DNA from: Paenibacillus mangrovi
GTDB lineage: Bacteria; Bacillota; Bacilli; Paenibacillales; Paenibacillaceae
DNA length: 64,000 nt
NCBI RefSeq assembly: GCF_022898935.1
Contig: NZ_JALIRP010000001.1
Coordinates: forward strand, 248,001-312,000
Reading direction: 5' to 3'
Both the position numbers and the translations under genes were made by a program. Below, in pieces: positions 49,066 through 53,613 of the stretch; the first letter of the stretch is position 1; the number at the start of each line of letters is the position of its first letter. Under the pieces are notes generated by a model that saw nothing but the letters and a program-made list of their open reading frames with translations, ran no database searches and had not been told where the DNA came from.

Positions 49066-49082
49066 TGTTATTAAACATAACA
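49066..49082. promoter_or_regulatory. GlnR/TnrA box I upstream of amtB
   Basis: TGTTA-TTAAACA-TAACA matches the GlnR/TnrA consensus TGTNA-N7-TNACA at every fixed position. It lies about 70 bases upstream of the predicted transcription start. Confidence 0.75.
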
Positions 49083-49106: not shown

Positions 49107-49136
49107 TTGTCATCACCACCCCTAACTGCTTATAAT
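49107..49136 (+). promoter_or_regulatory. amtB promoter
   Basis: TTGTCA at 49107, 18-base spacer, perfect TATAAT at 49131-49136. Predicted start near 49143. Confidence 0.65.
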
Positions 49137-49157: not shown

Positions 49158-49174
49158 TGTAATATAACCTAACA
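49158..49174. promoter_or_regulatory. GlnR/TnrA box II downstream of the amtB start site
   Basis: TGTAA-TATAACC-TAACA also matches TGTNA-N7-TNACA fully. It lies between the predicted start and the SD, a position for repression. Confidence 0.7.
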
Positions 49175-49193
49175 TTAAAGAGGAGTGGGGAGT

Positions 49194-50636
49194 ATGAAAG
49201 GAAAGTGGATTGGCGGTGCTTTGGCATTTCTTGCATTAATGGCTTTTCCGGTTACGGTGTTTGCGGATGATGGACCCACGAATGTGCAGCTTCAAGCAGG
49301 ACTCAATACATTCTTTGTGTTCATGGCAGCCATGCTCGTGTTTTTCATGCAGGCGGGATTTGCATTGCTGGAAGCTGGCTCGGTGCGGATGAAGAATGCC
49401 GGCCATATTGCAGGTAAAACGGTATTAACGCTCGGCATCTCGGTGATCGTATTTTGGGCTTTCGGCTTTGGGCTCGGTTTCGGCAACGGGAACAGCTTCT
49501 TTGGGACGACCGGATTTTTTATGACAGGCGATTCGATGGCGAAGTCCTTTGATGCGCTGTCGGCATCAGATGTATCCCTTTCGGTGAAATTTTTATTCCA
49601 ACTCTCCTTCGCGGCGATCTCCTTAGCGATTGCATGCGGCGGTATGGCCGAACGTGCCAAGCTGAGTATATATATCGTATTCGGAGCATTGTTTATGATC
49701 GTCATATATCCGGTTGTGGCTCACTGGGTATGGGGCGGCGGCTGGCTCGGCCAACTGGGCATGCAGGACTTTGCAGGCTCAACAGTCGTGCATTTGACGG
49801 GTGCCACTGCAGCTTTGGTTATTACGTATATGCTGAAACCTCGTCTTGGCAAATACAATAAGGATGGCAGACCGAACAGCATTCTGGGCCACAATCAGGT
49901 TTTGTCTGTTCTGGGCGTATTGATCCTCTGGATTGGCTGGTTCGGTTTCAACCCTGGCAGTACTTTGTCGGCGATGATGGACGGTTTCTTCGGCTATGTG
50001 GCATTGACAACCAATATCGCGGCGGCGGCGGGAGCCGTTGCTGCACTGCTCATTTCATGGGCTGTATTCGGCAAGGCGGATATCCCAAGCATGCTGAACG
50101 GTGTGCTGTCAGCACTCGTAGCGATTACAGGCTCTTGTGCCTTCGTGGATCCATGGGCTGCAGTTGTCATCGGGGCTGTCGCCGGAATCATTACCTTCTT
50201 TACGGCGCAATGGTTTGAGAGAGCAGGTATCGATGATCCGATTTATGCATTTTCCGTTCACGGCATTGCGGGGATTTGGGGAGCCATCTCCACAGGGTTG
50301 TTCGCAACGCCGAAGCTCGTGGAAACGACGGGTGTCGGTAAGCCGGGCTTCTTTTATGGCGGGGGATTGGAACAGCTTGGTGTTCAGCTTCTGGGAGTTC
50401 TAGGGGCATTCGTGTTCGTGTTCGTGATCTCGTTCATTATGATCGGTATGATGAAAGTGACGATGGGCATCCGCGTATCGGAGGAAGAGGAGATGATGGG
50501 GCTGGATATCAGCGAGCATGGCGCATACGGCTATCCGGAGCAAATGAAGCTAATTGCCGATGCGGCGGTAAAGTCTTCTTTAGAGCTCTCTGCAGTAAAG
50601 TCGGCAGCAGGAACCGGGGAAGCTTTGAACCTATGA
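49194..50636 (+). CDS. amtB: ammonium transporter
   Basis: 480 residues with a cleavable-signal-like N-terminus and eleven predicted helices, the Amt/MEP/Rh fold. FMQAGFALLEAGSVRMKNAGH is the ammonium transporter signature, and GGTVVHLTGA-like and DDPIYAFSVHGIAGIWGA the twin-His pore regions (here FAGSTVVHLTGA and FSVHGIAG). ATG 49194 is 8 bases after GAGGAG. In most bacteria it is followed by a PII gene; here a DUF294 nucleotidyltransferase follows 57 bases later. Nitrogen control is expected from the two GlnR/TnrA boxes. Confidence 0.95.
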   Translation: MKGKWIGGALAFLALMAFPVTVFADDGPTNVQLQAGLNTFFVFMAAMLVFFMQAGFALLEAGSVRMKNAGHIAGKTVLTLGISVIVFWAFGFGLGFGNGNSFFGTTGFFMTGDSMAKSFDALSASDVSLSVKFLFQLSFAAISLAIACGGMAERAKLSIYIVFGALFMIVIYPVVAHWVWGGGWLGQLGMQDFAGSTVVHLTGATAALVITYMLKPRLGKYNKDGRPNSILGHNQVLSVLGVLILWIGWFGFNPGSTLSAMMDGFFGYVALTTNIAAAAGAVAALLISWAVFGKADIPSMLNGVLSALVAITGSCAFVDPWAAVVIGAVAGIITFFTAQWFERAGIDDPIYAFSVHGIAGIWGAISTGLFATPKLVETTGVGKPGFFYGGGLEQLGVQLLGVLGAFVFVFVISFIMIGMMKVTMGIRVSEEEEMMGLDISEHGAYGYPEQMKLIADAAVKSSLELSAVKSAAGTGEALNL

Positions 50637-50693
50637 TCTTAAAGGCGACTTGTAAGCTAAAAAATTCAGCTGTTTGATAGGGAGGTGCAGCTA

Positions 50694-51773
50694 TTGGAGC
50701 CGATGAAATACGCGGAAAGTGAACCGGATTTGGAAGGCATCAGGTATGCAGCTTCCCGCGAGCAGCTGAGACAACAACGTCAAGAATGCCAAATGCAGCT
50801 GGAACAGCTATATGCAGTTTTACCCATTACCCAATGGACGTCACTCGTGAACGATATGCATGATCATGTTGCCGCTAGGGCGGCCGTCATTTCCGAATAT
50901 GAGCTGGATGCGGTGGGTTACGGTCCGCCTCCGGTTCCCTACGCATTTGTGGCATTCGGCAGTTCGGGACGGCGCGAGTCCACACTGTGGAGCGATCAGG
51001 ACCATGGGCTGATCATCAGTGATGTGGACCATGAAGAAAAAGAAAAGTATTTTCACGCATATGGGCGCCATTTGTCCAATTTACTGGAATATTTGGGATA
51101 TGAAAAATGCAAAGGGAAAGTCATGTGCTCCGAGCCGCTGTGGCGGAAAACACTTGAGGAGTGGAAGCGGCAGATCATAAGCTGGCATCAGGATTTCAGC
51201 TGGGAGCCTGTCCGCAGTCTGATGATCGCTTCGGATATGCGTTTTATCGCAGGTGAGCGTTCACTTGCGGCGGCCTGGAAGCAGTTTTTTGAACACAGCA
51301 TGAATGAATCTCCGGAGATGGTGACGGCTATTTTGCGAAACACAGTCAGACATAAAGCGACGATGAATATTCTTGGGCAGGTGGTTACCGAGCGTTTTGG
51401 AGAGCATGCCGGCGATTTTGATGTGAAATACGGTGTATATATTCCGCTCGTGAACAGCATCCGGTACATGGCCCTTCAGGAAGGCATCGGAGAGACATCA
51501 ACGCTGAAGCGGCTGGAAAGATTGACGCTACTGGATGGAGGGAACATGCTGCTCGAGAATTGCCAGCGGGCTTTTCTGACAGCACTGACGCTTCGTGCAG
51601 CCGCTTCCTTTACGGTGAACAACGGGATATATTCCAGCAGCGGATTCCTGCCGCAATCGGAGCTGAAGAAAAAGCCGCTCCTGTATAAGCTTCGTGACAG
51701 TCTTACGACAGTGAAGCGAACGCACCGTGCGCTGCAAAGACGACTTTGGTTTGCGGAGAGGAGAAGATTATGA
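50694..51773 (+). CDS. GlnD-like nucleotidyltransferase (DUF294)
   Basis: 359 residues. A helical N-terminus precedes FVAFGSSGRRESTLWSDQDHGLII, which has the nucleotidyltransferase pattern G-S-x-x-R-x-E then S-D-x-D, as in GlnD and DUF294 proteins. The C-terminal DUF294_C-type helical region follows. CBS and cyclic-nucleotide domains usually found in front are missing. TTG 50694 is 8 bases after GGAGG; GTG 50685 overlaps that SD. Its TGA overlaps the next start (ATGA). Its target may be AmtB, a PII protein elsewhere or a small molecule; this is not known. Confidence 0.8.
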   Translation: MEPMKYAESEPDLEGIRYAASREQLRQQRQECQMQLEQLYAVLPITQWTSLVNDMHDHVAARAAVISEYELDAVGYGPPPVPYAFVAFGSSGRRESTLWSDQDHGLIISDVDHEEKEKYFHAYGRHLSNLLEYLGYEKCKGKVMCSEPLWRKTLEEWKRQIISWHQDFSWEPVRSLMIASDMRFIAGERSLAAAWKQFFEHSMNESPEMVTAILRNTVRHKATMNILGQVVTERFGEHAGDFDVKYGVYIPLVNSIRYMALQEGIGETSTLKRLERLTLLDGGNMLLENCQRAFLTALTLRAAASFTVNNGIYSSSGFLPQSELKKKPLLYKLRDSLTTVKRTHRALQRRLWFAERRRL

Positions 51774-52510
51774 AGACTCCAGAGCGCGGGAACGGCGGAT
51801 TCTGGAGCTTGCTGCGCCAGGGAGGGGTGCCATCGGCGATCGCATCTGTGATGGGTGGCAACTCGGCTCAGCAGATGGCGTTCATCCGATCTCTCATGAG
51901 AGAACAGCGGCGGCCGGAGATGCTTCATACACCATTGAACAAGCTAAAAACCGTCATTTTCGACCTCGAAACTACGGGGTTCAACGTTCAGCAGGGGGAT
52001 GAAATATTGTCGATCGGTGCACTCAAATCGGACGGTGAGCACATCATGGAGCAGGATTCGTTTTATACGCTGGTGCAGGCCAAACGGCCGGTGCCTCGCC
52101 AAATTACCGAGCTGACAGGCATCACCCAGCAGATGATCGATCATGCGCCGCCTCTGATAGACGGTCTGCATGATTTTATGAGTTTTGTGGGTGACCGGGT
52201 TCTGGTAGCGCATGCCAGTGCGCATGATAAATCTTTTCTGAATTCGGCCCTCTGGAAAACGTCCAAGGTGAATCTGAGCCACCGCGTCATCGATACGATG
52301 CTGATCGCACGCTGGCTGGAGCCTTGCCGGCAGAGCTACACGCTGGATTCACTACTGTCGGGAAAAGGCATTCCTATTGAAGGAAGGCATCATGCGCTTG
52401 AGGATGCGAGAATGACCGCGAAGCTGTGGGCTTCTTATTTGAGGGATATTGCAGAGAGCAGGAAGGCTGATACGCTAGGTGATCTCTATGCTTGTCTCAG
52501 TCATGCATAA
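51770..52510 (+). CDS. DnaQ-like DEDDh 3'-5' exonuclease
   Basis: 246 residues. A 55-residue N-terminal extension precedes VIFDLETTGF (first two acidic ligands), VAHASAHDKSFL (third) and HHALEDARM (His and Asp of DEDDh). This is the fold of DNA polymerase III epsilon and of nucleases acting on short RNA or DNA. The ATG at 51770 overlaps the DUF294 stop, with GAGAGGAG 7 bases upstream, so it is coupled to the nucleotidyltransferase. The pairing suggests opposite steps on one substrate, which is an inference. The end overlaps the converging JAMM gene by 14 bases. Confidence 0.85.
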   Translation: MKTPERGNGGFWSLLRQGGVPSAIASVMGGNSAQQMAFIRSLMREQRRPEMLHTPLNKLKTVIFDLETTGFNVQQGDEILSIGALKSDGEHIMEQDSFYTLVQAKRPVPRQITELTGITQQMIDHAPPLIDGLHDFMSFVGDRVLVAHASAHDKSFLNSALWKTSKVNLSHRVIDTMLIARWLEPCRQSYTLDSLLSGKGIPIEGRHHALEDARMTAKLWASYLRDIAESRKADTLGDLYACLSHA

Positions 52511-52952
52511 TCCGGCATGCTTGCAGCGTGTAATTGCCATCGGTTCCTTTGATAATATTATAGCCGTTTAACTGTACGTTATGATCCTCACTACCTGGGC
52601 TGCCGATCAAATAGACGCTGAGCATACCGGCGAATAAAGGCAGCTGCTGCAGATCCTGGGCAGAAGGTACGGGATCCGAGTGAGGATGCGAATGAAAGAG
52701 GCCGATCAGGCCATCTCCCTGCAAGCATTCTCTTGTCCAGTCCTCGGGATGCAGGATGAACCGGTGCAGCGGGTCAGGAGCTGCGTTCCTCATAGGAACA
52801 AAGGTTTCACTCCGCATGCATCTAGCTGTAGCTGAACCACGCAAAATACCGCAGACTTCATAAGGTAATCCGAGAAACAGGTGCTCGGCAATTTGCCTTT
52901 CGCACGAGGCGCTGAGCCAAATTTCTTGTTGGGTTTCATGAGATTCTGTCAA
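52497..52952 (-). CDS. JAMM/MPN+ metalloprotease domain protein
   Basis: 152 residues. YEVCGIL provides the Glu, and HSHPHSDPVPSAQD the H-x-H-P...S-x-x-D zinc motif of JAMM isopeptidases. Bacterial stand-alone members remove C-terminal residues from ubiquitin-like sulfur carriers or act on unknown substrates. TTG 52952 is 8 bases after AAGGGAG; longer frames have no SD. It overlaps the exonuclease tail to tail by 14 bases and is divergent from the TlpA-like gene. Confidence 0.8.
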   Translation of the reverse strand: MTESHETQQEIWLSASCERQIAEHLFLGLPYEVCGILRGSATARCMRSETFVPMRNAAPDPLHRFILHPEDWTRECLQGDGLIGLFHSHPHSDPVPSAQDLQQLPLFAGMLSVYLIGSPGSEDHNVQLNGYNIIKGTDGNYTLQACRIMHD

Positions 52953-52989
52953 TCGTAGTTCTCCCTTCTGGAAAAAATCTGCAATCCAT

Positions 52990-53019
52990 TTGTAAGTTAC
53001 GGTGAAAAGAGGGTACAAT
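52990..53019 (+). promoter_or_regulatory. promoter for the TlpA-like gene
   Basis: TTGTAA at 52990, 18 bases, TACAAT at 53014-53019, 40 bases before the start. Confidence 0.5.
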
Positions 53020-53058
53020 ACTTCATAGAAACTTTCTATGAAAAGGAACGGGACATCC

Positions 53059-53613
53059 ATGAAGCGTAATCTATATATTCTTCTTGGCGTCATCGTATTA
53101 ATCGGTATCGCGATTTATCAAAATGCGGGACCCGGCATTCAGTCGGTTTTCCAGCAAGAGAAGCCGATGCCGACCGAAACGGGACCCAAGGCGGGACTGC
53201 TTGCCCCGGAATTTACAGCCCAAGGGCTGGACGGAAAAGAGTATCATGTTGACGGACAGCAGGATAAAGCGATTCTGCTGAATTTCTGGGCATCCTGGTG
53301 CAGTCCATGCCAGCAGGAAGCGCCTGAGCTGAATGCATTGGCCGAGAAATACAAGGACAGCCTGAACATTTACGGGGTCAACGTGACGAAATACGATAAT
53401 AAGCAGAATGCCCAAAAATTTATCGAAAAATATGGCGTGAACTTCCCGGTGATGCTTGATATGAAAGCTGATATCTATGAAAAAATGTACCAAGGGATCG
53501 CATTCCCGACCAATGTGCTTATTGACAAGCGCGGAGTCATCCAGGAGGTTGTGCTTGGTATTTTGCCACCGAAGGATTTGGAGAAAAAAGTGAAGCATCT
53601 CGTAAAATCCTGA
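53059..53613 (+). CDS. TlpA/ResA-like membrane-anchored thioredoxin
   Basis: 184 residues. A basic start and one uncleaved helix (about 5-22) are followed by a linker and a thioredoxin-like domain with the active site W-C-S-P-C (FWASWCSPCQQEAPEL) and the cis-Pro in FPTNVLIDKRG. It should reduce disulfides outside the membrane, as ResA does in cytochrome c maturation; no ccs genes are nearby. ATG 53059 is 10 bases after AAGGAA; the ATG at 53038 lies before the SD. Confidence 0.88.
   Translation: MKRNLYILLGVIVLIGIAIYQNAGPGIQSVFQQEKPMPTETGPKAGLLAPEFTAQGLDGKEYHVDGQQDKAILLNFWASWCSPCQQEAPELNALAEKYKDSLNIYGVNVTKYDNKQNAQKFIEKYGVNFPVMLDMKADIYEKMYQGIAFPTNVLIDKRGVIQEVVLGILPPKDLEKKVKHLVKS

Follow-up and report, generated by a model that had tools for sequence, protein, structure and literature searches.

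A DUF294 protein and a DEDDh exonuclease-like protein beside the ammonium transporter of Paenibacillus mangrovi: a candidate module for reversible nucleotidylation of the transporter tail

PII is the textbook regulator of ammonium transporters, and GlnD, the PII uridylyl/adenylyltransferase, belongs to a nucleotidyltransferase superfamily related to DUF294. The residues that GlnE and DrrA modify are tyrosines (397 and 77, respectively). The subject of this report is an amtB gene followed by the gene for a DUF294 nucleotidyltransferase and that for a DEDDh exonuclease-like protein, found in a 64,000-nucleotide stretch of Paenibacillus mangrovi (contig NZ_JALIRP010000001.1, positions 248,001 to 312,000; hereafter the window). 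The gene order itself is already known in print: footnote d of Table 1 in PMC3412718 (2012) gives an amtB-DUF294-dnaQ operon in several Bacillales and marks eight genomes (Anoxybacillus, four Geobacillus, P. polymyxa E681, Paenibacillus JDR-2 and Brevibacillus), with no glnK shown in the excerpt for six of the eight. Literature searches, made largely without subscription papers, turned up no experiments on this operon's DUF294 protein or its exonuclease. New here are the breadth of the order together with its regulatory boxes, the absence of PII at the loci, the glnA-like and tnrA neighbours, the predicted GlnE/DrrA-type fold, the Tyr-Pro-Glu (Y-P-E) tail of the transporter and the exonuclease motif.

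We believe that, taken together, the predicted fold of the DUF294 protein, the Y-P-E tail and the changed exonuclease motif are best read as reversible nucleotidylation of the Amt tail. The DUF294 protein would nucleotidylate the tail and the exonuclease would remove the nucleotide, which would amount to a PII-independent reversible control of ammonium uptake. We hold this reading tentatively and give it somewhat less than an even chance.

The layout confirms the three genes as a tight predicted operon. It consists of amtB, an ammonium transporter of 480 amino acids (aa) at 49194..50636 (ATG start, with an alternative GTG ahead of it at 49185; PF00909, E 7.9e-117; TIGR00836 above cut-off); the short-type DUF294 nucleotidyltransferase with DUF294_C, 359 aa, at 50694..51773 (TTG start; PF03445 and PF10335); and the DEDDh 3'-5' exonuclease-like protein of the PRK07740 family, 246 aa, at 51770..52510 (ATG start; PF00929 and NF005836). 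These genes and the sites described below are on the forward (+) strand. As the first-pass annotation had stated, the DUF294 gene starts 57 bases after amtB with no terminator listed in the scan of the gap (50637..50693), and its stop overlaps the exonuclease start in the ATGA at 51770-51773; the gap, read directly, holds the ribosome-binding site GGGAGGTG at 50680-50687. A search of the whole genome gave a single DUF294 and a single Amt match. A Prok-JAB metallopeptidase-like gene (52497-53093) is convergent with the exonuclease gene and overlaps its end by 14 bases.

The three-gene order on which the annotation built its proposal is widespread in relatives. Order and strand of amt, DUF294 and exonuclease are kept in 39 of the 40 loci collected from 39 genera of the order (38 of 39 genera), and gene order is thus conserved far beyond chance; these loci were chosen one per genus, with two more from the window's genus, and not at random. 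The exception (L090; loci bear our own L numbers) is a DUF294-exonuclease pair without amt. The triad is likewise present in every locus of a set of named Paenibacillaceae, which comprised the best 80 of 143. Short-type loci of the class, 29 in number and picked by eye to cover genera, as were the long-type loci discussed below, and not at random, have the window's gene order in 21 cases; most of the other eight are rearranged but still linked, for example as duf-exo-amt (L145), with convergent genes (L146) or with amt 3.5 kb distant (L167). DUF294 occurs in 192 of 198 genomes drawn from the order, with one match each, and in 110 of 249 genomes of the class. The six order genomes without it comprise two with no Amt, one with a broken Amt fragment, one with an Amt beside PII and two (G068 and G091) with an Amt and neither DUF294 nor PII.

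Nitrogen genes enter some of these clusters. In four loci, L168-L171, a glutamine synthetase (GS) or GS-like gene lies within the DUF294-exonuclease cluster; its product is above the GlnA cut-off in L168 and L169, below it but over that of Pfam in L170, and degenerate in L171. L168 (3908-9018) has glnA flanked by two DUF294-exonuclease pairs with amt downstream, and in L171 (4648-5832) the degenerate GS-like protein (395 aa, 81.8 bits to Gln-synt_C) is encoded between amt and the DUF294-exonuclease pair. In L163 (3428-4776), a locus without amt, tnrA is directly upstream of DUF294-exonuclease, its product being identified by NCBIfam NF053740 (162.9 bits against a cut-off of 140).

The DUF294 protein scores 120.7 bits with PF03445 (cut-off 21) and 66.5 bits with PF10335 (cut-off 22.5), both above the curated thresholds. 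The Pfam scan returned these two families only and no CBS, cNMP, HD or ACT domain, so that the absence of CBS domains remarked on earlier holds; NCBIfam gave no family for the protein up to E 0.001. Its nucleotidyltransferase motif is GSSGRRESTLWSDQD (50958..51002): in the pattern GSxGRxE...SDQD the first G, the R, the E and both D are invariant in 77 of 77 proteins, and the first S is kept in 76. The spacing from G89 to D101 and D103 is identical to that of G-X11-D-X-D, the motif given for the effector SidM/DrrA, whose adenylyltransferase domain is described as similar to GS adenylyltransferase (PMC12409994).

An AlphaFold2 model built with 40 sequences has a mean predicted local distance difference test score (pLDDT) of 94.6. 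With this model Foldseek found only DrrA (6yx5) and the GlnE halves 3k7d and 1v4a at 0.001 or better. A second aligner gave Z 27.3 for 1v4a (323 residues, 3.1 Å), 26.2 for 3k7d (313 residues, 3.3 Å) and 25.6 for 6yx5, DrrA/SidM (300 residues, 3.9 Å), followed by a DrrA fragment at 13.0 and then by aminoglycoside transferases and others at no more than 9.2. With 313-323 of 359 residues aligned to the GlnE halves, the modelled protein has a GlnE/DrrA-type adenylyltransferase fold over nearly its whole length. At the level of sequence, a search of solved structures with the DUF294 profile had no match up to E 1. The protein had been called a GlnD-like transferase. Its fold is indeed predicted to be that of a protein nucleotidyltransferase; the likeness to GlnD in particular did not stand, the nearest solved folds being those of GlnE and DrrA. 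It is not a GlnD, a family with HD and ACT domains behind the transferase, nor is it a GlnE by membership, since it has no NCBIfam match and one domain set in 359 aa. GlnD was dropped as the closest relative after no GlnD entry appeared among the fold matches listed, which is not proof against it. In PMC3710099, DUF294_C is grouped into the HEPN superfamily alongside the C-terminal domains of GlnD and GlnE.

The tail survey singled out Tyr447-Pro448-Glu449 of the Amt C-terminal tail (codons at 50532..50540) as a candidate docking or modification site. Y-P-E is present in the tail of all 67 DUF294-linked Amts (66 full-length and one fragment), most often in the form GLDxxEHGxxGYPEQM, and the Amts of L168-L171 share it despite 35-39% identity to the window's Amt. 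It is found in none of 25 distinct PII-linked Amts, whose tail has HGxxAY with N, E, Q, D or H as the next residue; among unlinked Amts it is present in four of 14 and absent from 10. The Amt counts exclude L146 (convergent) as well as L090 and L163 (no amt), and two of the named loci were dropped, one because its Amt reading broke off early and one because it was unread. In a quick tree built without the tail, leaving out L167 (Amt fragment) and seven repeat loci, the linked Amts form two clades parted by PII-linked clades on starred branches. The single-chain Amt model has a pLDDT of 84.6, and the mean of 53 for tail residues 441-450 is consistent with a mobile segment.

The best Pfam family of the third protein is PF00929 (108.5 bits), and it passes the curated cut-off of NF005836 (PRK07740) with 314.8 bits against 261. 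The first D, the E, the H and the last D of DEDDh are invariant in 76 of 76 proteins, the third acid being D in 58 and E in 18; the window's protein has all of these residues, with D as the third acid, and is predicted to be a 3'-5' exonuclease. Its motif II reads His-Asp and not Phe-Asp. This is the rule in the Amt-linked group: 69 of 70 short-type loci have His immediately ahead of the third catalytic acid (L160 has Leu), and the named loci have His-Asp in all 78 readable cases. Long-type loci have Phe-Asp in 30 of 30 readable cases, 47 loci having been scanned. The atypical motif II argues for a changed active site in the Amt-linked exonucleases. Snake venom 3'-5' phosphodiesterase strips AMP from the tyrosine of PII and from GS (PMC3612183, PMC12409994), so the chemistry of the proposed eraser exists; that a DEDDh enzyme performs it is our supposition.

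The operon is predicted to be nitrogen-regulated. Upstream of amtB, a sigma-70-like promoter TTGTCA-18-TATAAT (49107..49136; 11 of 12 consensus bases, the best of 11 in the scan) is preceded by the GlnR/TnrA box TGTTATTAAACATAACA (49066..49082) and followed by a second one, TGTAATATAACCTAACA (49158..49174), both exact matches to TGTNAN7TNACA, a consensus taken from PMC9948412. They are the only perfect boxes in the window and would be bound, by prediction, by GlnR or TnrA. Their number alone is weak evidence, because 0.66 boxes are expected and 12 of 100 shuffles had two or more; the point is their position before amtB. At least one box lies within 400 nucleotides of the start of the amt match in 60 of 67 linked and 77 of 80 named loci. 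Together with the glnA-like and tnrA neighbours, the boxes bear out the nitrogen link assumed in the first-pass annotation. PMC6191146 describes a two-site layout at the nif operon of P. polymyxa WLY78, one site activating and one repressing; the layout at amtB resembles it, and the same division of roles may apply. According to PMC4774088, amtB is up under N2-fixing conditions. The amtB promoter of P. polymyxa WLY78 is bound by GlnR in chromatin immunoprecipitation with quantitative PCR (under nitrogen excess) and in electrophoretic mobility shift assays (PMC9948412). The same paper names the gene after WLY78 amtB glnK2. An exact copy of one of the two sites printed there precedes the amt of a triad in L249, L251, L257, L261 (where it is a 15-base core) and L262, and in the sequences of these five Paenibacillus genomes, whose completeness is not stated, PII has no match; therefore glnK2 is most likely a DUF294 gene, probably misnamed, as judged by its position in close relatives.

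The DUF294 gene had been said to take the place of PII after amtB. At the level of the operon this is so. PF00543 (PII) has no match in the whole P. mangrovi genome, the control search being positive in 13 of 14 known genomes, and there is no PII match in 69 short-type and 80 named loci (149 DUF294 loci) with a query that finds 29 of 30 PII loci. At the level of the genome it is not always so, and a genome-wide exclusion of PII by DUF294 was rejected: in the class set PII is present in 21 of 97 genomes with short DUF294 (open frames below about 490 aa) versus 31 of 139 without DUF294, PII being counted only where better than 1e-10. The exclusion acts at the operon, not the genome. PII is present in 29 of 198 order genomes, with no match at E 0.001 in 169. 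Of 30 PII loci fetched from the order, 13 have amt within 1.5 kb. These PII-adjacent Amts always share 32-42% identity with that of the window, and the DUF294-linked Amts of the order share 55-77%; by sequence, they are other Amt paralogues. In L049-L059, loci from genomes of the window's genus, there is a PII-like gene of 113 aa that has no amt match in the surrounding 1.5 kb; the one in L049 adjoins a DUF445 gene.

Longer DUF294 proteins are found elsewhere. In a set of 348 genomes of the phylum, the strong DUF294 matches outside the class are in long frames of 489-698 aa; two long proteins, both from Bacilli, have two CBS domains and one cNMP domain each, the latter below Pfam's cut-off in one of them. 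Some long DUF294 genes adjoin sodium:solute symporters and most adjoin an exonuclease. Three alphaproteobacterial plasmids (Paracoccus, Ruegeria, Rhizobium) carry genes for DUF4212, symporter, DUF294, small protein and exonuclease in this order, in the Paracoccus case with acs adjacent and a response regulator gene added; a Cytobacillus plasmid has DUF294 and exonuclease without a transporter. The small protein between DUF294 and the long exonuclease in L284 (5914-6432) has no Pfam family, and there is one in a similar position in L285 and L287. In P. aeruginosa, PA3232-PA3235 is perhaps such a cluster, in which PA3232 and PA3233 would supply the DUF294 and exonuclease genes. It includes an ActP homologue and its expression rises on propionate (PMC9765439). 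Since clusters of symporter, DUF294 and exonuclease exist elsewhere, the combination of transporter, DUF294 and exonuclease may be a general theme, of which the Amt form may be the version of Bacilli.

In Bacilli, six symporters of the DUF4212 type that are encoded next to a long DUF294 terminate in YPEQM, the same five residues as in the commonest Amt tail; the seventh of the class, L294, reads RTPE. The Bacilli loci concerned, with L(R/H)YPEQM as the ending and Y-P-E kept in orthologues that lack an adjacent DUF294, are L178 (1384-3042), L300, L302, L305, L306 and L307, and L328-L340. Different residues precede the Pro in symporters from other classes and from alphaproteobacteria, and in ActP-type symporters beside DUF294 the tail motif is absent. 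All seven DUF294-linked members among 13 close symporter orthologues have YPEQM. The tail as proof of a shared tag was rejected on the control of the unlinked orthologues given below; the motif is a lead, not evidence.

In the mechanism that we propose, GlnR or TnrA would switch the operon according to nitrogen supply. The DUF294 protein, as a putative single-domain-set relative of the GlnE/DrrA adenylyltransferases, would put a nucleotide, most likely AMP, on the C-terminal regulatory tail of Amt, the target most likely being the tyrosine of the invariant Tyr-Pro-Glu, and the modification would alter whether the channel is open or closed. The DEDDh enzyme would then hydrolyse the Tyr-O-P-5'-nucleoside bond, whose layout matches that of the 3'-terminal bond cut by such exonucleases, and reset the transporter. 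The activity of DUF294, the nucleotide, the target residue, the direction of the effect and the exonuclease as eraser are parts that we infer.

Several observations weigh against this mechanism. The four unlinked Amts that retain Y-P-E include one whose genome has a DUF294 gene at another place. The tail tyrosine is also conserved in PII-linked Amts (all 30 loci read, with repeats counted), which leaves Pro-Glu as the distinctive part. On the tree the association depends on a small number of events: independent pairs comparing linkage and tail go four one way and none the other, with no difference in four (p 0.125); convergent gain of Y-P-E was not retained as a conclusion on this non-significant sign test, and a shared ancestor with losses may be the alternative. 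The symporters without DUF294 within 1.5 kb keep Y-P-E in six of six cases (YPEQM three, YPEGM two, YPEEM one), so such a tail need not depend on DUF294. The fold does not separate writing from erasing, because 1v4a, one of the two best-matching halves, is the AMP-removing half of GlnE; DUF294 itself might perform both. No DEDDh enzyme is known to us to take a nucleotide off a protein, our search not being exhaustive. Finally, PII accompanies short DUF294 in the 21 of 97 class genomes mentioned above.

Other substrates for the DUF294 protein have to be considered. It could nucleotidylate another nitrogen protein (GS, GlnR or TnrA), with Amt merely sharing the operon or serving for docking; GlnE, the nearest fold, modifies GS, and the GS-type genes of L168-L171 and the tnrA of L163 fit as well. 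Amt is nevertheless the constant partner (39 of 40 order loci), and a crude Tyr-x-Leu-Pro adenylylation-loop pattern occurs in one of the four neighbouring GS or GS-like proteins; we regard this explanation as unlikely. A small nucleotide signal or an oligonucleotide, made by DUF294 and degraded by the exonuclease, would account for the pairing with a DEDDh enzyme, and HalB, solved with oligodeoxyadenylate, is among the weak fold matches (Z 7.0 and lower). With strong matches limited to GlnE and DrrA (Z 25.6-27.3) and the rest, apart from the DrrA fragment, at 9.2 or below, such a product seems quite improbable.

RNA would be another substrate, the two enzymes adding and trimming 3'-end nucleotides and being expressed with nitrogen supply. 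DEDDh enzymes usually work on nucleic acid, and the best sequence match of the exonuclease among solved structures is a PolC-type polymerase chain. The lasting link to transporters speaks against it, as does the departure of the Amt-linked exonucleases from the norm beside the catalytic acid (His ahead of Asp or Glu in all but one of 70 loci; His-Asp in all 78 readable named loci), and only a slim chance is left to it in our opinion. That the neighbours are passengers with no functional link to Amt we find highly improbable: their functions are only predicted, the tail is kept in the four Amts without adjacent DUF294, and G068 and G091 hold an Amt with neither DUF294 nor PII, but the triad is kept in 38 of 39 genera (39 of 40 loci) and the linkage outlasts the changes of gene order in L145 and L146.

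Nucleotidylation of the Amt tail, if true, would assign the widespread DUF294 family a function and DEDDh enzymes a new task. The operon is a candidate answer to how PII-less genomes (169 of 198 in the order) stop futile ammonium cycling; it offers an enzyme, a three-residue site and an eraser, all of them predicted, and could be a PII stand-in in many Bacilli. A broader version would be a new kind of transporter control, in which a GlnE-like enzyme tags Tyr-Pro-Glu of Amt, a repurposed DEDDh enzyme erases the tag, both replace PII in the operon, and a sister version with cNMP/CBS sensor domains may control sodium:solute symporters of other bacteria; taken as a whole, it is doubtful.

Among the known systems, the amtB-DUF294-dnaQ operon of PMC3412718 is identical to the window's in gene content, and the excerpt of that paper offers no function for it. 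GlnE (1v4a, 3k7d) is similar in fold, in the D-x-D nucleotidyltransferase motif and in its nitrogen assimilation setting; it has two transferase halves per chain, whereas here there is one domain set and a separate DEDDh gene. GlnD shares nitrogen control and acts on tyrosine (PMC3612183), but DUF294 is without HD and ACT domains, and the window's genome offers no PII as a substrate. The AmtB-GlnK (PII) operon likewise has a regulator directly after amtB and, in Bacilli, GlnR/TnrA sites (PMC3412718); here, in contrast, DUF294 and the exonuclease follow amtB, and the PII-adjacent amts of the order are other paralogues. The symporter-DUF294-3'-5' exonuclease clusters repeat the combination of transporter, DUF294 and exonuclease, and differ in having a sodium:solute symporter instead of Amt, a long DUF294 (with cNMP/CBS in two Bacilli examples) and a Phe-Asp exonuclease.

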